Made by a program: the position numbers and the translations under genes. From Micromonospora sp. NBC_01699 (lineage in GTDB: Bacteria > Actinomycetota > Actinomycetes > Mycobacteriales > Micromonosporaceae), in assembly GCF_036250065.1 (NCBI RefSeq), contig NZ_CP109199.1:1240001-1304000 (forward strand): 64,000 bases of DNA, written 5' to 3'. Below, in pieces: positions 14,984-26,945 of the stretch. The notes beneath the pieces were generated by a model. It had not been told where the DNA came from. It was given only the letters and a program-made list of their open reading frames with translations, and did no database searches. Every line of letters begins with the position of its first letter. Position 1 is the stretch's first letter.

Positions 14984-15355
14984 ATGAGACTCTTCCGCCG
15001 AAGGGACGATGCCCCTTCCGGTTTCGGAGACACGGCTCTGGTCACGGAGATGGTCAGGACCCTCGGCGATACCCGGAAGTGGACCCTCACGGCCGACCAG
15101 TGGCAGGAAGTCGATCAATTGCTCGTCGTGATCGAGAACGCCGTCGCCGCCCGTGACACGGAAACACTTCGCCGGGCCGGAGCCGATCTGGAACTGGCCG
15201 AGTCGGTGCGGATAACCAGGATCGGGTCGGTGCCACGGGTGCCGCCGCCCGAACGGGTCCGCGAACGGGTCAATCGTCTGATCCACAGCCTGACCGGAAC
15301 CGATGCCGGTGCGCCGACCGAAAAAGATGACGATGGACACGCCGGACATCGTTGA
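14984..15355 (+). CDS. CATRA-associated small protein (CATASP-like), copy 1
   Basis: A 123-residue helical protein. Its features match the small proteins that precede CATRA proteins in actinobacterial conflict loci: WTLTADQWQEVDQLL, then paired helices with LRRAGADLEL, a conserved SVRITRIGSVPRVPPP linker and RERVNRLIHSL. The family has no known enzymatic activity; gene-neighbourhood work (Pfam CATASP) links it to CATRA/caspase/TPR systems. Its 3' end overlaps the CATRA-TIR gene. The second copy at 18777 precedes a second CATRA gene in the same way, which strongly supports a functional pairing. Confidence 0.7.
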   Translation: MRLFRRRDDAPSGFGDTALVTEMVRTLGDTRKWTLTADQWQEVDQLLVVIENAVAARDTETLRRAGADLELAESVRITRIGSVPRVPPPERVRERVNRLIHSLTGTDAGAPTEKDDDGHAGHR

Positions 15356-17279
15356 CCAGCAACTGGTGATCCATGTCTTCTGGCCCGTCGGCGGGGCGCG
15401 GGCGGACCGGGCGTACCGCGATCTGGATGAGTTGTGGGCCGGCTGCCGGCACGTTTTCGGCATGACCGATCCCATTCCGGGCACCGGTCTGCCCGCTCAT
15501 CTTCCCGATACGATCGCCGACCTGCTGACGTCGCCGAGCACGCCGGTCGACGGCGCGGCGATCGCCGGCCAGGAGCGACCCGGTACGGGATACCAGGCGG
15601 TGCTGCGTCGACACCACGACGTGTTGAACCTCTCCGTCGCGCTCGCACCACGGGTTGATTCCGGCGCCCCGGTTGTCACCGTCGATGCCGCGATGGCAGT
15701 CGAACCGTCACGCTGGTGGAGTGAGCTGGAGCGGCGGTGGCGCAGGACTGCCGACCGGCTGACCGGCGACGCGCTCGGCGAGGTCAGACTCCACGTCGGC
15801 CTACTGGCCCCCTCGGGCACGACGGGACAGCAACTCACCGCAGCGGAGCCGACCGGCCATCACGGGCCGACCGGCCATCACGGGCCGACCGGCCATCACG
15901 GGCCGACCGGCCAGCCGGAGGCGCCGGGCGCCGGTGCCGAGCTGGGCCGCCGGCTGGGCGTGCTGCTGGCACCGGGCCCGGACGGCGACGGGTGGTGGAC
16001 CGGGGGCAGCGACACCGACGACGGGTTCGCGGTCTGGGAGACGTCCCCGCGCGAGGATGCCCGGACCCTGCGCCGGATGGTGGTGGTGGCCGACGAGCAC
16101 CGCGACGCCGAGCTGAGCGCGTGGCTGTGGTCGCGGGGCGACCTGGTGATCCCCCCGCTCGCCCGGTATCTGCTGCACGCGGCCAAGGTGCGGTACCAGA
16201 TCCGGGTGTGGCAGCGCGACCGCCCGCAGGACGACCACCACACCGGTACGGAGCAGATGGTCGAGCGCCTGCGCCCCCTGCTGACACCCGGTTCCCATGT
16301 GGAGCCGGCAGGCGTACGGGTCGGCACCTCGACCGATCTCGTGGCCGCCGCCTCGGGGCTCGGCGCGCTCCGCAGCGGGGAGATCGAGGCGGTGCGGACC
16401 GGCACCGCCCTGCTGGAGATGCGCCGGACGGTAGAGATCGCGGCGGCGAACATGGACGCGGTGCCCGGTATCCACGGCTGCCGCCGGGACGGGCGGGGTC
16501 CGTTCGACGACGACCGGTCGCTCGCGGCGTGGTTCATGAGCCAGTTGACCGACGACGCGGACTACCTGGAGCAGACGGTCCGCCGGGCCCGGCAGATCGG
16601 CACAATCAGCGCCGAGGTGATCAGCGAGGCGAGGGTCAGCGAGGCGAGGAGCGGCGAGGCGAGGAGCGGCGCGCTGGTGCCGATGCAGCAGGCGGCGCCC
16701 GTGGGCAGAGCGGTGGAGGGGCGGCACGACATCGACCGGACCCGTGGCGTGTTCGTCGTACACGGCCGTGACGGCAACGTACGCGACCGCATGTTCGACT
16801 TTCTCCGTACGCTGGAACTGCGTCCCCTGGAGTGGGAGACGCTGGTGGCGGCGTCGGACAGCACCGCCCCCTACCTCGGTGACGTGGTCGCTCGGGCGGT
16901 TTCCCTGGCCCAGGCGGCGGTGGTCCTACTCACCCCGGACGACCAGGTGAGCCTGCACCCGAGCCTGCGCAGTGCGAGCGACTCCGAGCAGGAGTCCGGG
17001 CCGGGCATGCAGGCCCGACCGAACGTGCTGCTGGAGATGGGCATGGCGTTGGCCACCTATCCCCGGCGTACGGTGTTGATCCAGGTCGGCGAGCTGCGCC
17101 CGATCGCGGACCTGAACGGTCTCAACTTCATCCGGCTCAACGACAGCCCCGACTGCCGACGGAAGATCGCGGGACGGTTGCGGCAGGCCGGATGTCCGGT
17201 CAACGACGAGGGCTCGGACTGGTTGGCCCCGGGTCGGTTCGCCGATCTGGACGCCTACCGGCGGCGGCCGCAGCCGTAG
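15327..17279 (+). CDS. CATRA-domain protein fused to a C-terminal TIR-like nucleotide-binding domain
   Basis: A 650-residue protein. Residues ~1-460 form a CATRA-type region parallel to the protein at 19084: both share an HVFWPVG/HLFVALTGP start, a LARYLLHAAKVRY / FARYLMHAAILRY block, and MRRTVEIAAANM / MRRTVQIASANM. From about residue 472 there is a TIR-like domain: VFVVHGRDGNVRDRMFDFL, an ALLTP-type strand and NVLLEMGMAL, where E570 matches the glutamate used by TIR/PCTIR NADases. Such domains cleave NAD+ or make ADP-ribose-type signals in immunity. Two repeat tracts sit in the linkers. Start ATG 15327 is chosen by analogy with copy 2; ATG 15303 is an alternative. It ends 3 bases from the convergent SARP-macro gene. 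Confidence 0.72.
   Translation: MTMDTPDIVDQQLVIHVFWPVGGARADRAYRDLDELWAGCRHVFGMTDPIPGTGLPAHLPDTIADLLTSPSTPVDGAAIAGQERPGTGYQAVLRRHHDVLNLSVALAPRVDSGAPVVTVDAAMAVEPSRWWSELERRWRRTADRLTGDALGEVRLHVGLLAPSGTTGQQLTAAEPTGHHGPTGHHGPTGHHGPTGQPEAPGAGAELGRRLGVLLAPGPDGDGWWTGGSDTDDGFAVWETSPREDARTLRRMVVVADEHRDAELSAWLWSRGDLVIPPLARYLLHAAKVRYQIRVWQRDRPQDDHHTGTEQMVERLRPLLTPGSHVEPAGVRVGTSTDLVAAASGLGALRSGEIEAVRTGTALLEMRRTVEIAAANMDAVPGIHGCRRDGRGPFDDDRSLAAWFMSQLTDDADYLEQTVRRARQIGTISAEVISEARVSEARSGEARSGALVPMQQAAPVGRAVEGRHDIDRTRGVFVVHGRDGNVRDRMFDFLRTLELRPLEWETLVAASDSTAPYLGDVVARAVSLAQAAVVLLTPDDQVSLHPSLRSASDSEQESGPGMQARPNVLLEMGMALATYPRRTVLIQVGELRPIADLNGLNFIRLNDSPDCRRKIAGRLRQAGCPVNDEGSDWLAPGRFADLDAYRRRPQP
15855..15914 (+). 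repeat. Three-and-a-third 18-base tandem repeats encoding GHHGPT
   Basis: GGCCATCACGGGCCGACC is repeated exactly at 15855, 15873 and 15891, with a partial fourth copy, inside the CATRA-TIR gene. Identical codons imply recent expansion. The encoded His/Gly/Pro tract is likely a flexible linker within the CATRA region. Confidence 0.9.
16621..16665 (+). repeat. Three 15-base tandem repeats before the TIR-like domain
   Basis: TCAGCGAGGCGAGGG-type units lie at 16621, 16636 and 16651 and encode (S/G)EAR(S/V). They separate the CATRA region from the TIR-like domain. The GCGAGGCG core is shared with the repeat at 3111. Confidence 0.8.
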
Positions 17280-17282
17280 CGG

Positions 17283-18593
17283 TCAACGACTGTTCAGGTG
17301 CGCGGCGACGTCCAGTACGTCGATCTTCCCGATCTCGCCCGGCGGGATCACGATCCGCAGTTCGGGACAGAACATCCGGCTGCGGGAGTGGGTGAGGAAC
17401 GAGTCCACGATCTCCTTGAGTAGGTCCTCGCGCCCGACCGGGCCGATCCTCGCCAGTCCGGAGCCGACCAGGGGCATCGCCACCGCGCCGAGCTGCCCGT
17501 GCCGATGGACCGCCTCCCAGAGGCGGTCCAGGCTCTCCCGCAGATCGGCGAGGCTGGACCGGGCGACCAGGTCGTTGCCCATGTGGCTGTAGGCGAGCCC
17601 GAAGATCCGCTTGCCGGACTGGTTGAGCACCGCCACGGTGCCGATCGGGTAGCGGGTGAGCTTGCCGCGTCGTTTCGTGGCTCGGCTCTCGCTGCCCGAC
17701 TTGGGCACCTGGGCGAGTGCCGAACGCAGGTCGCGGTCGAGCCAGAGCCGGTCGCCGCCGTACCGGCGGCGCAGCAGCTGGCCCTGGATGCTGGCGCTGT
17801 TGATCACCACATCCCGGTTGGTCGCCGTGTCGAAGGTGTCGCTGAAGCCCACCACGAGGTGGGCGTCCTCCTGCGCGAACAGGTCACCGTCGAGCACCAC
17901 GATCCGGGTACGCAGCGACGGGAACGCGCGCTGGGTCAGGCTGCGCGGCCGATTCTGCTTCTGCCGGCGCAGCTCCGCGACCAGTTCGGCGATCTCCTCG
18001 TCGGCCGGGTCCTCGGCCAGCAGCGCGCGACCGGTCTCCAGCGCCCGGTCGAACTGACCGACGTCGCGGTACGCCCGCAGCAGGGCCCGTTCGGCGGAGG
18101 CGCGGAGCAGCCTCAGTCGGCGGATCGGGCCCTCGGCGAACGCGTACTGCTCGGCGTCGAGCAGGGGACGTCCGCGCCACAGCTCACGCGCGGTGTGCAG
18201 CAGCCCCAGTGCGGTGGCGGGGTCGGAGCCGTGTGCCTGCTCGACGATCCGCCGGTAACGGAGCACGTCGACCTGTTCCGGGTCCAGCACGAGCTGGTAC
18301 GCCGAGGTGTGTCCACGGTCGGTGCGCAGTATCTCCGAGCTCTCGCCGGGATGTTCCGGGTCGAGCAGCTTCCGTAGCTCCACTATGCGTTTCTGTACGC
18401 TGATCCGCTCCCTGCGCCGGTCCGGCCGCACCGACGGCGGCCAGATGTCGCGGAACAGCTCGTCCACCGTGACCATCTGTCCCTCGGCGAGTACGAGCCG
18501 GATCAGCACCGAGGTCGTGATCGGCGCGAGTCTCGTGGTGTGCCCGTCGATTTCGACGACGGTGCGGCCGAACATCGTTATCCGGCAACGCAT
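17283..18593 (-). CDS. SARP-type regulator fused to a ThsA-type macro domain
   Basis: A 436-residue two-part protein. Residues 1-100 form an OmpR-like winged helix (FGRTVVEIDG, VTVDELFRDIWP, ISVQKRIVELRKLL), and about 105-215 form the helical bacterial transcriptional activation domain, together a SARP. From ~228 on it switches to a macro-like domain of the Thoeris ThsA kind: VVLDGDLFAQEDAHLVVGF, DTFDTATNRDVVINSASIQG, YPIGTVAVL, and PLVGSGLARIG before IVDSFL. The macro domain of some Thoeris effectors binds TIR-made ADP-ribose-type molecules; that this one does is inference. ATG 18593 has GGGAGGGG 7 bases upstream. It lies between the two CATASP-CATRA pairs, convergent with the TIR-bearing one and divergent from the other. 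Confidence 0.75.
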   Translation of the reverse strand: MRCRITMFGRTVVEIDGHTTRLAPITTSVLIRLVLAEGQMVTVDELFRDIWPPSVRPDRRRERISVQKRIVELRKLLDPEHPGESSEILRTDRGHTSAYQLVLDPEQVDVLRYRRIVEQAHGSDPATALGLLHTARELWRGRPLLDAEQYAFAEGPIRRLRLLRASAERALLRAYRDVGQFDRALETGRALLAEDPADEEIAELVAELRRQKQNRPRSLTQRAFPSLRTRIVVLDGDLFAQEDAHLVVGFSDTFDTATNRDVVINSASIQGQLLRRRYGGDRLWLDRDLRSALAQVPKSGSESRATKRRGKLTRYPIGTVAVLNQSGKRIFGLAYSHMGNDLVARSSLADLRESLDRLWEAVHRHGQLGAVAMPLVGSGLARIGPVGREDLLKEIVDSFLTHSRSRMFCPELRIVIPPGEIGKIDVLDVAAHLNSR

Positions 18594-18650
18594 CGGCACC
18601 CCTCCCACGTCCGGCCCGAATACCGCGATTCGAGCGTACGGAGGCCCGGT

Positions 18651-18715
18651 TTCGTAAGCAAACCGGAAGCAGACCGGAAGCGGACGGGATGCGGGTCGGG
18701 GCTTTTTCCGGAAGC
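18651..18715. promoter_or_regulatory. 11-bp-phased direct repeats, probable SARP binding boxes
   Basis: In the 183-base divergent gap between the SARP-macro gene and the CATASP2 gene, ACCGGAAGC occurs at 18662 and 18673 and ACGGGATGC at 18684, each exactly 11 bases apart. Weaker copies lie at 18651 (TTCGTAAGC) and 18695, and TCCGGAAGC lies at 18707. SARP regulators are known to bind heptameric direct repeats spaced 11 bp. The array lies about 60-120 bases upstream of both starts, so it could govern the regulator itself and the ten-gene operon. Confidence 0.7.
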
Positions 18716-18776
18716 TCGTCCGATGGTCTGCTGGACCCTGTCCGGCGGGTGCGGCCATTGGCGAGTGAAAGGGGCG

Positions 18777-19115
18777 ATGTCACGGATGAAAGCCACCAAT
18801 CACGACCAGTTGCTCCGCAATCTACGGGAAATTCTGGTCGATCTTGTCCGGTGCGAACTACCACCGTCGGCGTGGGATCGGGTCGAACGTTCCATCACGG
18901 TGATCAACACAGCTTTGTCGACCTCCGAGTGGTCGGCGATATCCACCGAGACGGCCGTACTCGAATCCGTCGTTCCCAGTCGGGCGAGGCCACTGGACAG
19001 CCCTCCCGAGCCGGTGTCGGCCAGCCTCCGGGAGCGGATCTCCACGCTGATCCACCGGGTCGACCAAAAGTGGGGTGAGGACGATGGCGGAAAGAAGCGC
19101 CCCGGAAAGCGCTGA
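18777..19115 (+). CDS. CATRA-associated small protein (CATASP-like), copy 2
   Basis: A 112-residue helical protein sharing the outline of the copy at 14984: LPPSAWDRVERSI, a central helix pair, a proline linker (RPLDSPPEPV) and SLRERISTLIHRV. Compared with copy 1 the RITRIG core is not conserved. ATG 18777 follows AAAGGGG; ATG 18786 is an alternative. It overlaps the CATRA gene by 32 bases and is the first gene of a long co-directional series to 34432. Confidence 0.62.
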   Translation: MSRMKATNHDQLLRNLREILVDLVRCELPPSAWDRVERSITVINTALSTSEWSAISTETAVLESVVPSRARPLDSPPEPVSASLRERISTLIHRVDQKWGEDDGGKKRPGKR

Positions 19116-20646
19116 CCTGACCGGCCTCGAATTCGCCGGGCACCTGTTCGTCGCGCTGACCGGGCCGGAGCGGAGCCCGGGGTACGACCACCTCACCGAG
19201 GTCTGGCGCCGGTGCGCGGAGATCCTGGGGATCGGTACGCCGATCGAGGCGCTCGGGCTGCCCGCCGTCCTGCCGACCACGCCCGACCTGCTGCCGCCCG
19301 GCAGCGGTCCGGTGGCCGCGGCGCAGCGGCCCGGCGCCGAGGTCCGCCAGGCGTTCGTCTACCGGGAACACGACCTGCTCTGCCTGTCGGCGATGCTCGT
19401 GGCCCGGGGCCCGGACGAGGGCTGGAGCGAGTTGGAGCGGGACTGGGCGCGGGTTGTCGGGGCACCGGACGACCTACCGCTGGGTGAGGCGAGGTTGCTG
19501 CTCGGGCAGCGACGCGGTCGGGCACGCTGGCTGCGCGGCCCCACCCGGGTTCCGCTCGGCCGGCGGGTTCCGGCGCGCCGGCGACCGGGTCGGCGGGCTG
19601 CCACGGCCGTGGTCACCGGCGATGGACTGGCGGTCCGTGAGCTGTCACCGGCCGGGGACGACCGGAGCCGGCGCCGGCTGGTCGTGACCGCGCCGCCCGG
19701 TGACGGCGACCGGCTCGGCTCCTGGGCCTGGGCGGCCGGGCGCCCCGAACCCGCGCCGTTCGCCCGCTACCTGATGCACGCCGCGATCCTGCGGTACGAG
19801 CTGCGGGTGTGGCTCGCCGGACAGCACTTCCGGCAGCTGCGGCACCGGGCCGACGCGACCCTCGGCGAACTGCTGCCGGCGCTCGCCGCCGAGCCCGACG
19901 GGTCGCCCGGCCGGTGGAACGGGTACGCCCGCCGGCTGGACCTGCTGGTCGCGGACGAGGCGGGCCTGGTCGGTGCCGCCGCCCAGTTGCGCGGCATGCG
20001 CCGTACGGTGCAGATCGCCTCGGCGAACATGGCCCAGGCCGTCCGGACCGAGGAGCCCGGTTCGGCGTACGGCGGCTTCGATCCGTTCGCCGACGATCGT
20101 GACCTGGCGGTGTGGTTCGAGCAACAGCTCGACGACGACGTCGAGTACCTGGAGGCGGCGCTGCACCGGGCCGGCACGGTCGGCGCGCTGCTCGACCAGA
20201 GCGTGCAGCGCTGGGAGGCGCGGCGGCGGGAACGCCTGGTGCTGGTGCAGACCGCCGTCCTCGGGGCGGTGGTGATGGTGCTGACGGCGACCCAGGCGTT
20301 CCAGTACCGGGTGCCGCTGCCCGGTCCCGTACAGCCCGCCGTGATCGCCACCCTCGGGGCCGTCACCTTCTCCCTCCCGCTGGTCGTGGTCCGGCTGACG
20401 TTCGCCCGTCGCGGCGGCACGACCGTGTCGCTCGAACGGCTGGGCCTGGCCTCGCTCGTGGCGGCGGTGGTGTGGACCGCCCTGTCCTGGGCCAGCCACC
20501 GGGTCTGGCCCGGCGTCGCCGACTGGTGGTGGACCGGTGCCGCGGTCGTGGTCGCCTTCGCCCTGACCTGGGTCGGCATGTCGCTGGCCCGACGGTGGTC
20601 CGTCAGGGAGATACAGCAGGCGCGCCGGACGCCCATGAAGGAGTGA
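19084..20646 (+). CDS. CATRA-domain protein with a C-terminal four-helix membrane domain
   Basis: A 520-residue protein. Residues 1-375 are the CATRA-type region shared with the protein at 15327 (matching blocks include FARYLMHAAILRY, MRRTVQIASANM, FDPFADDRDLAVWFEQQLDDD). Instead of a TIR-like domain it has about four membrane helices between 385 and 505 (starting LVLVQTAVLGAVVMVL; ending VVVAFALTWVGMSLA). A membrane C-terminus in place of a soluble enzyme suggests a membrane-perturbing or membrane-anchored effector. The GGTGAGG just before ATG 19084 fixes the start. GrpE follows after 35 bases. Confidence 0.7.
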   Translation: MAERSAPESADLTGLEFAGHLFVALTGPERSPGYDHLTEVWRRCAEILGIGTPIEALGLPAVLPTTPDLLPPGSGPVAAAQRPGAEVRQAFVYREHDLLCLSAMLVARGPDEGWSELERDWARVVGAPDDLPLGEARLLLGQRRGRARWLRGPTRVPLGRRVPARRRPGRRAATAVVTGDGLAVRELSPAGDDRSRRRLVVTAPPGDGDRLGSWAWAAGRPEPAPFARYLMHAAILRYELRVWLAGQHFRQLRHRADATLGELLPALAAEPDGSPGRWNGYARRLDLLVADEAGLVGAAAQLRGMRRTVQIASANMAQAVRTEEPGSAYGGFDPFADDRDLAVWFEQQLDDDVEYLEAALHRAGTVGALLDQSVQRWEARRRERLVLVQTAVLGAVVMVLTATQAFQYRVPLPGPVQPAVIATLGAVTFSLPLVVVRLTFARRGGTTVSLERLGLASLVAAVVWTALSWASHRVWPGVADWWWTGAAVVVAFALTWVGMSLARRWSVREIQQARRTPMKE

Positions 20647-20681: not shown

Positions 20682-21341
20682 ATGGACATCCTGAATCAGG
20701 ATCGGCGGAACACAGTGGACGACACAATCGATAATTCGTCGCAGGACCTTCATGTCCCCATCCCCCGTACGGACGACACGGTCACGCCGGACGAAACGCG
20801 CGACGATGCCGACCGGTTCGCCGAGCTCGTTGCCGTACTCGCCGAGATCCGCGGTGAACTGGTCCGGGGGAACGAACGCGCGGTCGCCCGCGAAAGGGTG
20901 ATCGACCGTCTGCACGAGGAGAACCAGCGGCTCCGGGCGGGCGAGTACCGCGCTCTGGTTCGGCCACTCGTGACCGATCTACAGAGCCTGCGCAACGACC
21001 TGCTCCGGCAGGGCGCCGGACTGGCCGAGCCGGTCAGCCCCCGGGCCGCCGCGAACCTGCTGGCCAGCTTCGCCTTCAGCGTCGAGCTGACCCTGGAACG
21101 GGTCGGCGTGCAGGTGCTGCGGGCCGAGCCGGGTGTTCCGTTCGAGCCCGGTACGCACCGGGCGGTCGGCGTGGTCCCCACCCTCGACCCGGATCGGGAC
21201 GGCACCGTCGCCGCACTGGTCAGCGACGGATACCTGGACGTGGCGGCGGCCCGACCGCTCGTGCCGGCGTCGGTCACCGTACACCGTTTCACCGGACCCC
21301 CGGCCGAGCCGGCCGAATCACGCTCGGATGAGGAGAGCTGA
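20682..21341 (+). CDS. grpE: GrpE-like nucleotide exchange factor
   Basis: A 219-residue protein with an acidic, disordered N-terminus, a long coiled coil (ADRFAELVAVLAEIRGEL through ENQRLRAGEYRAL) and a C-terminal beta domain with FEPGTHRAVGVVPT and TVAALVSDGYL, matching GrpE. GrpE releases ADP from Hsp70. The stop overlaps the Hsp70 start by one base, so this is a dedicated exchange factor for that Hsp70 and not the housekeeping dnaK-operon copy; no dnaJ or hspR accompanies it. The ATG 20682 ribosome site is weak. Confidence 0.78.
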   Translation: MDILNQDRRNTVDDTIDNSSQDLHVPIPRTDDTVTPDETRDDADRFAELVAVLAEIRGELVRGNERAVARERVIDRLHEENQRLRAGEYRALVRPLVTDLQSLRNDLLRQGAGLAEPVSPRAAANLLASFAFSVELTLERVGVQVLRAEPGVPFEPGTHRAVGVVPTLDPDRDGTVAALVSDGYLDVAAARPLVPASVTVHRFTGPPAEPAESRSDEES

Positions 21342-23029
21342 TGTCCCAGGAACAGGTCACCTATTTTGGAATCGACCTCGGAACCACCTACTCGGCCATC
21401 TCGTACATTGACGAGACCGGACGGCCGACGGTCGTGCGGGACGTGATCGCCGAGAGCGACACGATGCCGTCCGTCGTCTATTTCGAGAGCGCCGACAACG
21501 TCATCATCGGCGCCAACGCCCGCAACATGGCCCGGATCGACCCGGAGAACGTGGTCGAGCGGGTGAAGCGGCAGATGGGCCGGGAACGCCAGTGGGAGTT
21601 CTTCGGTACGACGCAGAATCCGGCGTCCATCTCGGCGCTGATCCTGCGCCGGCTCGCCGACTACGCGCAGGAGTACACCCAGCGCGAGGTCAAGCAGGTG
21701 GTCATCACCGTCCCGGCGTACTTCGGCATGCTGGAGCGGGACGCGACCCGCAACGCCGGGACGATCGCCGGCCTGGACGTGATCGGCATCGTCCCGGAGC
21801 CGGTCGCCGCCGCTTTGCAGTACGAGATGATCGGCGACGCCACCGAGAAGACCGTGCTCGTCTACGACCTCGGCGGCGGTACGTTCGACACCACCGTCAT
21901 CCGGGTCACCGCCGGGGCGATCGAGGTCCTGTGCACCGACGGCGACCAGGAACTCGGCGGCACGGACTGGGACGACCGGCTGGTACAGCACCTGTTGCAG
22001 GAGTTCACCGCCGCCGCGAACCCGACCGAGGACCCGGCCGAGGACGCGCAGTTCATGCAGGAACTGATCATCACCGCCGAGCAGGTCAAGCGGGCCCTGT
22101 CACAGGTGTCGTCGCGACCGGTCCCGCTCCGGTTCGCCGGCGCCTCGGCCGTGGTCACGGTGACCCGCGAGACGTTCGAGGAGATCACCCGGGACCTGCT
22201 CGACAACACCATCGCGATCACCGACCGCACCCTCGGGAAACTGGGCGACAAGAGCGGCAGCGGCAGCCCCAAGGACCTGATCGACGAGGTCCTGCTCGTC
22301 GGCGGATCGACCAAGATGCCGGCGGTGTCCGCCCGGCTGACCGAGACGTACGGCTGGCGCCCGCACCTGCACGACCCCGACCTCGCGGTCGCCAAGGGAG
22401 CGGCGAGGTACGCGCTCAGCCGCGCGGTCTGGCGTTCCGACGACACCGCCGGGGCGGACAGTACGCCGCCGAGCGCCAGCGAGCGCGCCGAGCGGATCAA
22501 CACCCTCGCCGGCCTGACCGGCCTGGCGCCGGAGGCGATCGCCCAGGTGTCGGAGAAGCGGATCACCACCGTGCTGCCGAAGGCGTTCGGGGTACGGCTG
22601 GTCGACGCCTCGAAGCCGGACTACGACGAGTCCAACCCGGAGGCGTCCTTCTACATCGCGCACATGGTGCACGCGGACGACCCGCTGCCCAGCGGCCCGC
22701 ACCGGCTGGACGCGCTCACCCTGGTCGACAACCAGCAGGCCGTCGAGGTGGTGGTGTACGAGCAGGCGGGCACGGTGGAGAGCCCGGACCTGTTCGCGAA
22801 CAAGCCGGTGGACAAGGGTGCCGGGCTGATCAGCGGGCTACCTCGGCTACCGAGGCACTCGCCGCTGCTGATCACCATGACGGTGAACGAGGACGGCCTG
22901 CTCACCGTGCACGCGGTCGAGCCCGGCTCCGGCCGGGACCTGACCATCGAGGTCCGGGTGAGCACCCTCACCGAGGAGGAGATCCCGCAGTTGCGGGCGA
23001 TGGTGTCGGCGATCGCGGTCAGGTCCTGA
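21341..23029 (+). CDS. Hsp70/DnaK-family protein of the conflict operon
   Basis: A 562-residue Hsp70. The ATPase domain is complete: FGIDLGTTYSAI (phosphate 1), ITVPAYFGMLERDATRNAG, VYDLGGGTFDTTVI (phosphate 2) and VLLVGGSTKMPAV (adenosine). The substrate-binding beta part follows (ITTVLPKAFGVRLVD onward), but the chain ends soon after, so the long helical lid of DnaK (usually ~610-640 residues) is mostly absent. Lid-less Hsp70-like ATPases occur in actinobacterial conflict operons, where they may act as regulated switches. It overlaps grpE by one base and leaves a single base to the next gene. Confidence 0.9.
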   Translation: MSQEQVTYFGIDLGTTYSAISYIDETGRPTVVRDVIAESDTMPSVVYFESADNVIIGANARNMARIDPENVVERVKRQMGRERQWEFFGTTQNPASISALILRRLADYAQEYTQREVKQVVITVPAYFGMLERDATRNAGTIAGLDVIGIVPEPVAAALQYEMIGDATEKTVLVYDLGGGTFDTTVIRVTAGAIEVLCTDGDQELGGTDWDDRLVQHLLQEFTAAANPTEDPAEDAQFMQELIITAEQVKRALSQVSSRPVPLRFAGASAVVTVTRETFEEITRDLLDNTIAITDRTLGKLGDKSGSGSPKDLIDEVLLVGGSTKMPAVSARLTETYGWRPHLHDPDLAVAKGAARYALSRAVWRSDDTAGADSTPPSASERAERINTLAGLTGLAPEAIAQVSEKRITTVLPKAFGVRLVDASKPDYDESNPEASFYIAHMVHADDPLPSGPHRLDALTLVDNQQAVEVVVYEQAGTVESPDLFANKPVDKGAGLISGLPRLPRHSPLLITMTVNEDGLLTVHAVEPGSGRDLTIEVRVSTLTEEEIPQLRAMVSAIAVRS

Positions 23030-23030
23030 C

Positions 23031-25730
23031 TTGTCCACCTTCGACACCGCCCGCTACGACCGGGAGGTCATCGGCCCGCTCCGCGGCCGGCACGGCCGAT
23101 TGCCTCCCGGCGACCTGCGGGTCCGCTACGCGATCGAACCGGGCATGGACCGGTCCGCGATCGAGGAGCGGCTGCGCAAGGTACGGATGTACTGGAACCA
23201 GAAGGCGACCGGCCCGGCCGCCCAGGCCGCCACCCGGGTCTGTCAGCGGCTGCTCGCCGCCGACGAGGAGATCGTCCGGAGCGCCGGTGCCCGGATGCTC
23301 GACCCGACGTGGTGGCAGCAGCAGGCCGCGGAGCACGGCGAACGGGCGAAGGCCGCCGTGACCGACCTGGTCCGCGACCTGCGTGACTCGTACGGGGGCA
23401 CCGGTCGGATCACCCGTCAACAGCTCGCCGCCATCGTCACCCACCACCAGGCGTCGCTGCGCCAGGGACAGATCGACAGCGCGGTGCAGCAGGCCAGGCT
23501 CGCCGTGGTGGATCCGGTCGAACTGCCGCAGGAGAGCGGGATCGACCGGACCGCGTACCGCAGTCTGAGCGAGAACCTGGCCATCGCCGGGGTGCCGACC
23601 ATCGTCCAACTGCTCCACCCTGACCTGCGCCAGCCGTTCCGCCTCGCCCACGGCTTTGCCGTGCCGGGGCGGACCGAACTGAGGCTGGACGCGGCCACCG
23701 TCGACCAGCAGACGACGGCGTCGAACACCGCCGCCTTCTCCTCCACCGTCCAGGCCCGCAAGAACGCCCTGGTGGCGCTGCGTACCGCGGCGAAGCAGGG
23801 GCGGGACCTGACCACGCTCGCGCTCTACCAGGTGGTCGAGCAGCTGCGGCAGGGCAGGGCGAACGGCCTGGCCGACCGGATGCTGGTGCGCGGCGCGGTC
23901 GAACTCGGCCTGGCCGCCGAGGACGCCGAACTGCTGGTGCTGAGCCTGCCGGCGGTCAGCGGCACCCCGGTCAGCGCCGCCGGCCAGGTGCGGGAGCTGC
24001 TGGGCCGGGGCGAGCTGCGGACGGCGGCGCAGCGGCTGACGGCGGTGCCGGCCGGCGATCCGGACCGGGAGGCGATCCGGCAGGAGATCGCCGACGCCGA
24101 GCGCCGGCTGACCGAGCTGCTGGCCGAGGCGGACCGGGCGGCGGCGGACGACCGGGAGGAACTGGCCGAGCAGTTGCTGCGCCGGGCCGCGGCGACGGCC
24201 TCCGACGACGAGCAGACGGCCGGGCGGCTGCGCCGGCTACGTCCGCCGCCGCCCGAGGACCTGCGGATCGAGCCGGCGGCCCGGACGGCGCTGCGCTGGA
24301 CCGGACCGACCACGGGGCTGCCGGACCTGCGGTACCGGGTGGTCCGGGGCGCGGGCGGTCCACCGGCCACCCCCGGCGACGGCACGCTCGTGGCGGAGAC
24401 CGCCGAGGTCACGGCCGTCGACACCGACCCGTTGGTGGCCCGGCCGTCCGGGTACGCGGTCTTCGTCGCCAGCGGCACCGGGACCTGGTCCCGCCCGGTG
24501 GCGGCGACGGTCACGGTCGCGCCACCGGTGGGGGAGGTGACCATCCGGGCCACCCGCCAGCGGGTGAGCGCGGCCTGGCGTACGCATCCGGCGGTGGTGG
24601 CGGTTCGGGTGCGGCGTACCGAGGGCCGGCGTCCCACGTCGGCGACGGACGGTGTCGTCGTCGAGGCCGCACCGGACGGGTTGACCGACGACGACGTCCG
24701 GGAGGGGGTCGAGTACTTCTACAGCCTGGTCGCGGTGTACCGGGACGAGGATTCCCGCGAGGTCGCCTCGACCATGGTCACCGTCTCGGCGGCGCCGCGA
24801 CCGACGGCGAGCGCGGTGGAGACGCTCACCGTCGAGCCGGTCCGGGTGGACGGAAACCGGGCCCGGGTACGGCTCAGCTGGGTCCGTCAGCCCGCGATCG
24901 AGGTACGCGTCCGGCGCGCGGCGACCAGGCCGACCTGGCAGCCGGGCAGCCGGCTGTCGATCTCGGCGATCGACGGGTACGGCACCGAGGTGACCGGGCC
25001 GGTCGTCGACGTCGGCGAGCGCTCCTCGATGGAGGCGGACGTCCCGCTCGGCTTCCACATCTACGTGCCGTTCGCCGTCGGCGGTGAGGGCGTGCTCGCC
25101 GGCCGGTCCGTCGCCCAGGGGCTCGCCAACCCGGTCGACCAGCTCCGGGTCGAACGGGTCGGCGACCGGGTGGCGGTCTCCTGGGTCTGGCCGGAGCAGG
25201 TGAGCATCGCGGAGGTGAGCTGGGAGCGGGACGGCCGCTCGTCGTCGGTGACCCGGGTGACCCGCAACCAGTACGTCCAGGAGAACGGCTGCCGGCTGAG
25301 CGCGGACGCCCGGCCCGGTCGGGTCACGGTGGTGGGCATCACCGCGGGTGCGAACGGCGAGGCCCGCTCGCCCGCGGTGGTGGTCGACGTGCCGGGGCGG
25401 GCCGCGCGCCTGCGCTACACCATCGCCCGGCCGGCCGGGCTGCGCAACCGCCTGTCCCGCCGCCGGGTCGTCACGGTCACGGCGGAGGCCCAGTGCAGCG
25501 TCGAGGAGCTGATCGTGGTGGCCCGGCCCGGACCGGTCATGCCGGTGCGCCCGGCCCAGGGTACGGAGATCGTCCGCGCCTCCGGGCTGGACTTCAGCGC
25601 GGGGCAGAGCCGGCAGATCGAGTTCGAACTCCCGCCGGACCTGCCCCGCCCGTACTGGATCCGTTGTTTTGTCGAACCGCCAACCGGTGTGACCCTGGTG
25701 GATCCGCCGGTCGACCACTTGAGGGTGTGA
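23031..25730 (+). CDS. Large helical protein with C-terminal FN3/Ig-like repeats
   Basis: An 899-residue protein with no catalytic motif that I can see. Residues 1-400 are helical, with an early segment (KVRMYWNQKATG, AATRVCQRLLAADEEI) and a coiled coil near 345-395. From ~405 on there are several ~95-residue beta-sandwich repeats of the fibronectin III kind, each with a conserved core (LRIEPAARTALRWTGP, EVTIRATRQRVSAAWRT, RVERVGDRVAVSWVWP) and a tyrosine or valine-rich strand. FN3-like modules serve as protein-protein adaptors. Placed directly after Hsp70 and before the GTPase, it may be the client or scaffold linking the two. The TTG start at 23031 is 1 base after the Hsp70 stop. Confidence 0.6.
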   Translation: MSTFDTARYDREVIGPLRGRHGRLPPGDLRVRYAIEPGMDRSAIEERLRKVRMYWNQKATGPAAQAATRVCQRLLAADEEIVRSAGARMLDPTWWQQQAAEHGERAKAAVTDLVRDLRDSYGGTGRITRQQLAAIVTHHQASLRQGQIDSAVQQARLAVVDPVELPQESGIDRTAYRSLSENLAIAGVPTIVQLLHPDLRQPFRLAHGFAVPGRTELRLDAATVDQQTTASNTAAFSSTVQARKNALVALRTAAKQGRDLTTLALYQVVEQLRQGRANGLADRMLVRGAVELGLAAEDAELLVLSLPAVSGTPVSAAGQVRELLGRGELRTAAQRLTAVPAGDPDREAIRQEIADAERRLTELLAEADRAAADDREELAEQLLRRAAATASDDEQTAGRLRRLRPPPPEDLRIEPAARTALRWTGPTTGLPDLRYRVVRGAGGPPATPGDGTLVAETAEVTAVDTDPLVARPSGYAVFVASGTGTWSRPVAATVTVAPPVGEVTIRATRQRVSAAWRTHPAVVAVRVRRTEGRRPTSATDGVVVEAAPDGLTDDDVREGVEYFYSLVAVYRDEDSREVASTMVTVSAAPRPTASAVETLTVEPVRVDGNRARVRLSWVRQPAIEVRVRRAATRPTWQPGSRLSISAIDGYGTEVTGPVVDVGERSSMEADVPLGFHIYVPFAVGGEGVLAGRSVAQGLANPVDQLRVERVGDRVAVSWVWPEQVSIAEVSWERDGRSSSVTRVTRNQYVQENGCRLSADARPGRVTVVGITAGANGEARSPAVVVDVPGRAARLRYTIARPAGLRNRLSRRRVVTVTAEAQCSVEELIVVARPGPVMPVRPAQGTEIVRASGLDFSAGQSRQIEFELPPDLPRPYWIRCFVEPPTGVTLVDPPVDHLRV

Positions 25731-25733
25731 CCG

Positions 25734-26945
25734 ATGCGCGGAAAGAGTTTCTGCCCCTACTGCTACCACCGGATTCCGCTGCGGAAGCTGTGGTACCAGT
25801 GCAACGGACGAGGATCGAACAAACGGGAGGGTTGCCGGGCCGAGTCGTCCGACGAGGCGCGGGCGAGGGAGTTCAAGTACACCGCCAAGCTGCGCCCGTC
25901 GTACGGTCCGCCGAGGTTCCGCCCCACCAGGGCGCCCCGGCAGGGGACCTGCCCGGACTGCGGCGGCGTCAGCGGGATCCGGGTCTGCCCGAACTGCCAC
26001 ACGCCGCTGCCACCGGGCTTCGAGGACTCGCGCAGCCCGCTGATCGCCATGATCGGGGCGAAGAACACCGGCAAGACGGTCTATCTCACCGTGCTCGCCA
26101 ACGAGCTGCGGACCAGTCTGCGTCGGCGGTTCCAGGCCGACGTCCGGCTCACCGCCGACCTCCAGGACGACCAGGAGTCGTCACTCCAGCGGCTGGACAA
26201 GCAGATCGAGCTGCTCTACCACAAACGTACGCTGTTGGACTTCACCAGGTCGGCCGCGGAGAACGACGGCCGGCGGGACGCGCTGGTCTTCGAGTGGCGC
26301 CAGGCCCGCCGCCGCCGGCTCGCCGGCACCCACCTCCGGACCACCTACCTGTCGTTCTACGACACCGCGGGCGAGGACTTGAGCAGCCGGGCCAACACGG
26401 TCGAACTGAAGTACCTCGACGCCGCCGAGGCCCTGATCGTGCTGCTCGACCCGTTCATGCTGCCGCAGGCCCGTGACCGCCTGCACGTACCGAAGGAGGC
26501 GATCAACGGCCAGCCGATCATGGAGGTGCTCGGCAACGTCACCGACACGCTGCGGGAGAGCCGCCGGATCGGGAACAGGCGGATCGACCTGCCGGTCGCC
26601 GTCGTCTTCGCCAAGATAGACGCGTTCTTCGAAGCGCTCGGCAGCGACCATCGGCTGCTCAACCCGCCGGACAGCAGCACCGGCTACTACGACGAGACCG
26701 CCGGCCGGGACACCCACGAGGACGTACGCGCGCTGCTCGACGACTTCGGCGCGGACGCCGTCGACACCCACCTGACCGCGCACTACCGCGACTTCCGCTA
26801 CTTCGCCGTGTCGGCACTGGGCGCGCAGCCGGACTACCGGGGGGCGGCGGTCGAGTCCGGCGGCGTACGGCCGTTCCGGGTGGACGAGCCGCTGCTGTGG
26901 CTGCTGAGCCGCTTCGGGGTCGTCCCGTCCCGGGAGCGGAAATGA
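25734..26945 (+). CDS. Double zinc-ribbon GTPase (DO-GTPase-like, first of pair)
   Basis: A 403-residue protein. Two zinc ribbons lead: CPYC at 7-10 with C23/C34, and CPDC at 73-76 with CPNC at 85-88. The P-loop is G108-AKNTG-K114-T115, the G3 motif is D210-TAGED, and AVVFAKIDAF supplies a G4-like KID. The domain belongs to the TRAFAC-type GTPases that occur in pairs with GAP1 proteins in conflict systems (Pfam DO-GTPase families). It is cytosolic, with no membrane helix. Its stop overlaps the next start (ATGA). A switch role is likely; the effector is not known. Confidence 0.75.
   Translation: MRGKSFCPYCYHRIPLRKLWYQCNGRGSNKREGCRAESSDEARAREFKYTAKLRPSYGPPRFRPTRAPRQGTCPDCGGVSGIRVCPNCHTPLPPGFEDSRSPLIAMIGAKNTGKTVYLTVLANELRTSLRRRFQADVRLTADLQDDQESSLQRLDKQIELLYHKRTLLDFTRSAAENDGRRDALVFEWRQARRRRLAGTHLRTTYLSFYDTAGEDLSSRANTVELKYLDAAEALIVLLDPFMLPQARDRLHVPKEAINGQPIMEVLGNVTDTLRESRRIGNRRIDLPVAVVFAKIDAFFEALGSDHRLLNPPDSSTGYYDETAGRDTHEDVRALLDDFGADAVDTHLTAHYRDFRYFAVSALGAQPDYRGAAVESGGVRPFRVDEPLLWLLSRFGVVPSRERK

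Follow-up and report, generated by a model that had tools for sequence, protein, structure and literature searches.

A SARP-type regulator fused to a ThsA-type macro domain beside a CATRA-TIR gene: a candidate transcriptional receptor for TIR signalling

Type II Thoeris defence systems pair a TIR protein, ThsB, with ThsA, a TM-macro protein of which structures from E. coli and P. corrugata are available (PDB 8v6q, 8v6r, 8v6s). The output of Thoeris is described as abortive infection (PMC11204291). AfsR and other Streptomyces SARPs (PDB 8k60, 8hvr) combine a wHTH with a BTAD domain and bind direct repeats 11 bp apart. According to one study, the repeats of SARP operators lie 11 or 22 bp apart, the last repeat stands 8 bp from the -10 element, and the afs box of AfsR has two repeats (PMC10936776). 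The transcription factor Csa3 (CARF-wHTH) of CRISPR systems responds to an immune second messenger, said to be cyclic oligoadenylate. The nearest precedents in idea are the SLOG-HTH fusions of phages and NrtR (Nudix-HTH), in which a DNA-binding domain is joined to a sensor of NAD+ or ADP-ribose derivatives; the SLOG-HTH fusions are sporadic and their sensing role is a suggestion, while NrtR is reported to sense ADP-ribose (PMC9503650). Phage TIR-SLATT loci are also said to carry a separate HTH factor sometimes (PMC9503650). No transcription factor acting as a Thoeris receptor was found in the open-licence papers that we searched by title and by the beginning of the abstract.

The window analysed here, by which we mean the whole 64,000-nucleotide stretch from Micromonospora sp. 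NBC_01699, contains a gene whose product joins a SARP-type regulator to a ThsA-type macro domain (SARP-macro). The features around this gene are as follows.

14984..15355, plus strand: CATASP small protein, overlapping the start of the CATRA-TIR gene (Pfam)
15303..17279, plus strand: CATRA-TIR protein, 658 aa, with CATRA-N, CATRA-C and a CAP12/Pycsar-type TIR domain at residues 483-613 that holds Glu578 (Pfam, alignment)
17283..18593, minus strand, ATG at 18593: SARP-macro gene, 436 aa, with wHTH at about 19-94, BTAD at 118-205 and ThsA-type macro domain at 231-416 (Pfam, PADLOC, PDB sequence search, AlphaFold2 with Foldseek)
18633..18638, minus strand: TACGCT, possible -10 element of the SARP-macro gene, 14 bases past the last heptamer
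18653..18715, minus strand: GCTTCCG repeat array, candidate SARP operator (pattern counts, upstream comparison)
Heptamers of the array, minus strand: GCTTCCG at 18709-18715, then 16 bases, GCATCCC at 18686-18692, GCTTCCG at 18675-18681, GCTTCCG at 18664-18670 and GCTTACG at 18653-18659
18777..19115, plus strand: the other CATASP, on the far side of the array and divergent from the SARP-macro gene (Pfam)
19075..20646, plus strand: candidate membrane effector of 523 aa, the second CATRA protein, whose residues 388-505 include four hydrophobic segments (Pfam, hydrophobicity)
20682..21341, plus strand: 219-aa protein, member of the divergent gene run (codon-usage gene finder)
21341..23029, plus strand: Hsp70-like protein (Pfam)
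23031..25730, plus strand: 899-aa protein without a Pfam match at E 0.1
25734..26945, plus strand: DO-GTPase2-like protein (Pfam)

Two pairs of a CATASP and a CATRA-N/CATRA-C protein are therefore seen here, at 14984-17279 and 18777-20646. CATRA ternary conflict systems resemble this locus in these proteins and, for some of its relatives, in caspase-like partners (PMC8195603). Tandem PTGHHG repeats (15849-15917) lie within the CATRA-N part of CATRA-TIR. The name CATRA reportedly goes back to Burroughs and Aravind in 2020.

The C-terminal part of the SARP-macro protein matches ThsA_Macro (PF20016) at residues 231-416 with 199.1 bits against a cut-off of 25 (E 7e-59). The BTAD at residues 118-205 is also over its Pfam cut-off (40.6 against 22.1 bits), and Trans_reg_C at residues 19-94 stays under it (22.3 against 26.2 bits). 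The ThsA models of PADLOC match the protein as well (best 4.2e-68), and its nearest solved structure by sequence is the macro domain of EcThsA (8v6q, 2.6e-13). An AlphaFold2 model computed with 32 sequences has a mean pLDDT of 89.5 and a pTM of 0.52, so the domains are individually confident and their mutual placement is not. By Foldseek, one part of the model pairs with ADPR-bound EcThsA (8v6r, TMt 0.80), and another with the SARP of AfsR in its transcription complex (8k60, TMt 0.70). The protein is thus a macro protein by sequence family and predicted fold, and a SARP by its BTAD and AfsR-like predicted fold, with the OmpR-type wHTH under the Pfam cut-off. The first-pass annotation had proposed a SARP factor fused to a ThsA-type macro domain; the fusion is confirmed, and the macro fold of the C-terminal part is borne out.

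Within the phylum, 3 of 396 genomes, the window's among them, have PF20016 over its cut-off. Phage sequences gave no match to SARP-macro, and PHROGs gave none at E 0.01. None of the 82 matching plasmid records has a single place covering more than 80% of the query, and among the 12 plasmid matches listed, only the macro part matched.

Type II Thoeris and this locus have in common a TIR partner and a macro domain of one Pfam family and fold, but here the output domain is SARP-type, the TIR is of the CAP12/PCTIR family and fused to CATRA, and four ligand contacts are changed. The pair of ThsB-type TIR and TM-macro ThsA is absent: the one PF20016 match of the genome is the SARP fusion. Compared with AfsR and other SARPs, the protein shares the wHTH and the BTAD, and direct repeats 11 bp apart lie upstream of its gene as a candidate operator, but a macro sensor replaces NOD/TPR, the heptamer is GCTTCCG, the candidate -10 lies 14 bp away, and four repeats rather than two stand in step. 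Csa3 would work in a similar manner but is built of unrelated domains, and the SLOG-HTH fusions and NrtR differ in both the sensor and the DNA-binding domain.

We then consider the macro pocket. In EcThsA, ADPR is contacted by D83, L113, N114, S175, S217, G218, T220, H259 and K262, and a quadruple mutant of D83, S217, T220 and K262 is reported to lose ADPR binding (PMC11204291). These contacts were placed through the PDB sequence alignment with an offset of 37, which reproduced the residue letters of the paper. Their equivalents in the window protein are, in order, D237, I269, Q270, S336, S378, G379, A381, P417 and E420. Four contacts are kept (D83, S175, S217, G218), one change is conservative (L113I), and four are changed (N114Q, T220A, H259P, K262E). 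Gln270, the counterpart of N114, is Gln in all 141 aligned rows, 76/76 of SARP-macro and 65/65 of other macro proteins, and Arg382 shows the same counts. Asp237 is found in 76/76 and 64/65 rows and Ser336 in 75/76 and 62/65, where the conservation of S336, like that of D255, is partly by choice because both sit in the search patterns of the scan. Position 417, Pro in the window, is Arg in 61/76 SARP-macro and 61/65 other rows. By the first-pass annotation, a predicted structure lacking the macro fold or a pocket lost across homologues would have spoken against the proposal; neither is seen, and Asp237, Gln270 and Arg382 are invariant in the 76 SARP-macro rows. Most departures from EcThsA are common to SARP-macro and the other macros, which favours one ligand for both.

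The TIR partner may give a hint about this ligand. TIR residue 484, which we take to be the Tyr/Phe/Ala position of the active site, is Phe in every one of the 72 rows that have a residue there. In three macro-partnered ThsB subfamilies, the active site is reported to have Tyr, and NADase TIRs usually have Phe or Ala (PMC11204291). If Phe484 occupies that position, the ligand may be something other than His-ADPR.

In the 8.28 Mb genome, the only PF20016 match, SARP-macro, and the only PF10137 TIR match, CATRA-TIR, are neighbours of each other. The gap of 3 bases given by the first-pass annotation is correct (17280-17282). CATRA-TIR lies on the plus strand and meets the SARP-macro gene tail to tail, so the pair is not an operon. 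The catalytic glutamate, which had been numbered E570, is present as well; that number counts from the ATG at 15327, and counting from 15303, where the longest ORF starts, gives residue 578. Glu occupies this position in 73 of 74 aligned TIR rows, with a gap in the remaining one.

Among 60 related genomes, three full-length relatives of the window protein were found. A scan of GTDB contigs with an alignment of full-length relatives, whose sample was drawn with two patterns inside the macro domain and ranked by likeness to the fusion, gave 77 loci from the best 80 of 122 relatives. From the scan loci and two others, with L024 excluded as a copy of L070, we obtained 74 loci with SARP and macro in one frame. 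Within these loci from the best 80 of 122 relatives, 66 of 74 have a homologous TIR, which is no farther than 3.5 kb in 64 of them and more distant in L053 and L056. Of the eight TIR-less loci, L035, L054, L057 and L083 are cut off by a nearby contig edge, one flank of L032 is 3.5 kb long, and the sequence around L030, L070 and L099 extends for about 10 kb in both directions. On the L070 (= L024) contig of genome G025, the nearest PF10137 matches lie 17.5 kb (a weak one) and 21.8 kb off. For comparison, 8 of 61 related genomes, including that of the window, have PF10137 over its cut-off, and all four genomes with a full-length SARP-macro belong to these eight. The distance from SARP-macro to TIR is about 0.14 kb in G000, about 0.13 kb in G048 and 2.3 kb in G033.

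The partner TIR is mostly plain, CATRA-fused in 11 of the 66 loci, and 52/66 have a plain TIR upstream in the same orientation. In the Streptomyces loci read, the plain TIR runs into a TM-macro gene, which is divergent from SARP-macro. The earlier interpretation of a relay, in which the TIR product switches on the SARP, gains from the fusion, the fold, the TIR glutamate and the TIR neighbourhood, and has to be qualified in that the genes are convergent, the pocket identity with EcThsA is partial and the partner is mostly a plain TIR. The conserved neighbourhood of SARP-macro and TIR across genomes favours the relay idea.

A further likeness to type II Thoeris is a second macro protein in 54 of the 74 SARP-macro loci. 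It appears to be mostly TM-macro-like, as a hydrophobic segment precedes its macro domain in 46/54 at a threshold of 1.6 and in 53/54 at 1.3. In a macro tree of 99 of the 141 rows, from which short and near-identical rows were dropped, 2 changes account for the SARP-macro label, where shuffled labels need 32.6 on average, which indicates that the SARP-macro and other macro architectures were rarely exchanged. At pocket position 378, both macro proteins of a locus carry the same residue in 44/54 loci (S,S in 29 and A,A in 15), an agreement that is weak because the loci are related. L025:7715-10594 encodes a tandem pair of macro proteins, with ORFs of 667 and 290 aa, some 20 kb from the SARP-macro on its contig; a CATRA-TIR ORF is overlapped at its end by the first of the pair.

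Upstream of the SARP-macro gene, the last four heptamers of the array are stepped by 11 bp, matching the spacing of SARP operators and making the array a candidate operator. The 8.28 Mb genome contains a single exact GCTTCCGN4GCTTCCG. When one mismatch is tolerated, the genome count of 10 equals the 10 of the backwards control, so only the window place stands out; at up to two mismatches, there are 4 matches in the window, and 5 of 100 shuffles reach that count. A scan with the sigma-70 consensus found no promoter in 18560-18800. The candidate -10, TACGCT, follows the last heptamer at 14 bases instead of the 8 of the SARP rule.

The 20 loci compared for the upstream array are the window and 19 others picked by arrangement (no divergent TM-macro neighbour of the Streptomyces kind; L022 and L032 carry a second macro protein), a set drawn up after the upstream sequences had been viewed. 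In this set, 15 of 20 loci (the window and 14/19 others) have an array with at most 4 mismatches in 21 bases in the 300 bases upstream of SARP-macro, against 8 of 4896 control windows. L023, L031, L054, L091 and L099 lack an array so defined, and in L023 three GCTTCCC heptamers nonetheless stand at the predicted start. In four of the 15 array-bearing loci, a TANNNT stands 14-15 bases away (14 for the window, L028 and L034; 15 for L032), in three it is at 19 (L029, L045, L048) and in two at 31-32, and six have none; the 19-base spacings could fit if a degenerate last repeat is allowed. On the side facing SARP-macro, 9/15 loci have a TANNNT no more than 60 bases from the array, compared with 212 of 2058 intergenic 60-base stretches of the same loci; on the far side, 1/15 has one within 120 bases. 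This bias in the sequences points to autoregulation first.

The same upstream test was positive in 0 of the 55 other SARP-macro loci. In these loci plus L101, an exact heptamer pair is present in 52/56 (plus strand 37, minus strand 43, both 28), and the arrays of the 55 lie mostly at outer cassette edges, pointing outward, with no obvious promoter. We considered them as promoters of the outward genes in Streptomyces and set this aside, as no conserved -10 was seen by eye. Altogether, the exact pair is found somewhere in 58 of 74 SARP-macro loci and in 0 of 7 macro loci without SARP (6 distinct places), and the backwards pattern has no match in 121 loci. Across 295 Streptomyces genomes, a three-heptamer array with at most one mismatch occurs in 25, PF20016 in 33 and both in 21 (Fisher 5e-20), and the backwards control pattern in 2. 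By comparison of coordinates, 25 of the 30 Streptomyces array places are within 5 kb of PF20016, 1 is on another contig of such a genome, and 4 are in PF20016-free genomes.

The candidate effector genes across the array vary. Since raw ORF lists are dominated by spurious GC-rich ORFs, genes next to the arrays were called with our own codon-usage gene finder, which is approximate. The operons found there encode CATASP-CATRA (window, L028), CATASP-CHAT (L034), CHAT (L070), TPR-CHAT (L030), a long CHAT protein (L056), caspase C14 (L022) and a plain TIR operon (L037, L065). In L031, which has no array by the above definition, a CHAT gene is divergent from SARP-macro. Across the array of L029 (6049-9809) stand a 65-66-aa protein and radical SAM and asparagine-synthase-like genes, possibly a RiPP set. 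A 65-66-aa protein is also seen at L045:7326-9821, where the likeness to the L029 set is one of gene sizes only; L048, too, has genes of similar size by the gene finder.

Based on these observations, we propose, with a probability of roughly 60%, that SARP-macro is a ligand-gated one-component factor for TIR signalling. Upon infection, the neighbouring TIR, here CATRA-TIR, would turn NAD+ into an ADP-ribose-type nucleotide, which the C-terminal macro domain of SARP-macro would bind. By analogy with ThsA (PMC11204291), the ligand would make the macro domains assemble. The assembly would align the N-terminal SARP domains along the GCTTCCG array in 11-bp steps, with cooperative occupancy of three or more repeats. 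The array-bound SARP domains would then recruit RNA polymerase and upregulate SARP-macro's own gene and, probably, the divergent run of CATASP, CATRA(TM) and Hsp70. Support for this chain, which is comparative, sits at its two ends, the TIR linkage and the array; we infer the ligand, the assembly, the array binding, the activation and the targets. Several observations count against it: the four changed contacts, in view of the ADPR loss of the quadruple mutant, the three loci with about 10 kb on either side and no TIR (L030, L070, L099), and the 14 bp to the -10 together with the 0/55 upstream arrays of the other loci.

A broader version is a widespread and modular Actinomycetota relay, in which the TIR nucleotide is read in parallel by a TM-macro effector and by SARP-macro, assembly on GCTTCCG is cooperative, and effectors are swapped (CHAT, caspase, CATRA-TM, RiPP-like). 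We hold it tentatively, at a little under even odds; if true, it would be a transcriptional arm of Thoeris signalling. To our knowledge, the known outputs of Thoeris disable the cell. TIR pathways of animals switch genes on, and with SARP-macro as receptor, the same alarm would be answered in that way. The relay idea lends itself to testing, with 74 loci to choose from, varied candidate target genes, and a pocket and a DNA array that are both defined.

We regard it as unlikely that SARP-macro acts in the opposite sense, as a repressor or two-way switch that sits ligand-free on the array, keeps the immune genes low and is released by the TIR nucleotide. The position of the array just upstream of the likely promoter is in keeping with repression, as are the Nudix or WYL factors, described as negative regulators, of other ADP-ribose-related defence loci (PMC9503650); however, the fold match is to AfsR, which is a transcriptional activator (PMC10936776). 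We give somewhat less credence to a macro domain that senses general NAD+/ADP-ribose metabolism with no dedicated TIR product, the TIR linkage then reflecting a shared location in defence islands. Such a sensor would agree with the partly changed pocket contacts and with the report that ThsA macros bind plain ADPR too (PMC11204291). On the other hand, a TIR is found in 66/74 loci against the background of 8/61 related genomes over the cut-off, and among the plain SARP matches listed, none lies near a PF10137 place when the lists are compared by reading.

Least probable, in our view, is that the GCTTCCG arrays are the ends of a mobile defence cassette and not operators, with SARP-macro acting elsewhere. 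This explanation draws on the Streptomyces loci, where a cassette of roughly 5.6-6.2 kb with a small ORF, an ORF of about 525 aa, TIR, TM-macro and SARP-macro lies between inverted GCTTCCG arrays (L058:5852-11444, L104:5787-11438 and similar). Where both strands carry arrays, in 27 Streptomyces-type loci, they enclose a stretch of 5.0-6.2 kb, once 10.3 kb. Among 225 locus pairs, which are not independent, with more than 80% of the enclosed stretch aligned, less than 20% of the 2.5-kb flank aligns in 191 on the left and in 176 on the right. One cassette-free site was found, in G562, where the L104 flanks are contiguous save about 44 bases; the missing upstream array in 55/55 loci of the other arrangement also fits mobile ends. 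Moreover, inverted arrays occur near 1733 and 7029 of L122 (G539:C1:2975001-2990000), in a Streptomyces genome without PF20016, and arrays around unrelated genes there count against the ligand-gated receptor as well. By contrast, the array lies inside the locus, upstream of SARP-macro, in the window and 14/19 loci of the same arrangement, TANNNT stands beside it at recurring spacings, and no transposase family was found in the four L058 cassette proteins scanned.

The genes between the G539 arrays look like glycerol uptake, glycerol kinase and dehydrogenase genes, as named by eye from their first residues. At the site of the L104 cassette, G547 holds about 3.4 kb of other DNA. The TIR proteins of the cassettes (L058:8232-8951, L104:8159-8905, L040:7835-8584) start with Asn/Gly-rich stretches, for example NNNNGGNVNSGTQTF in L058.
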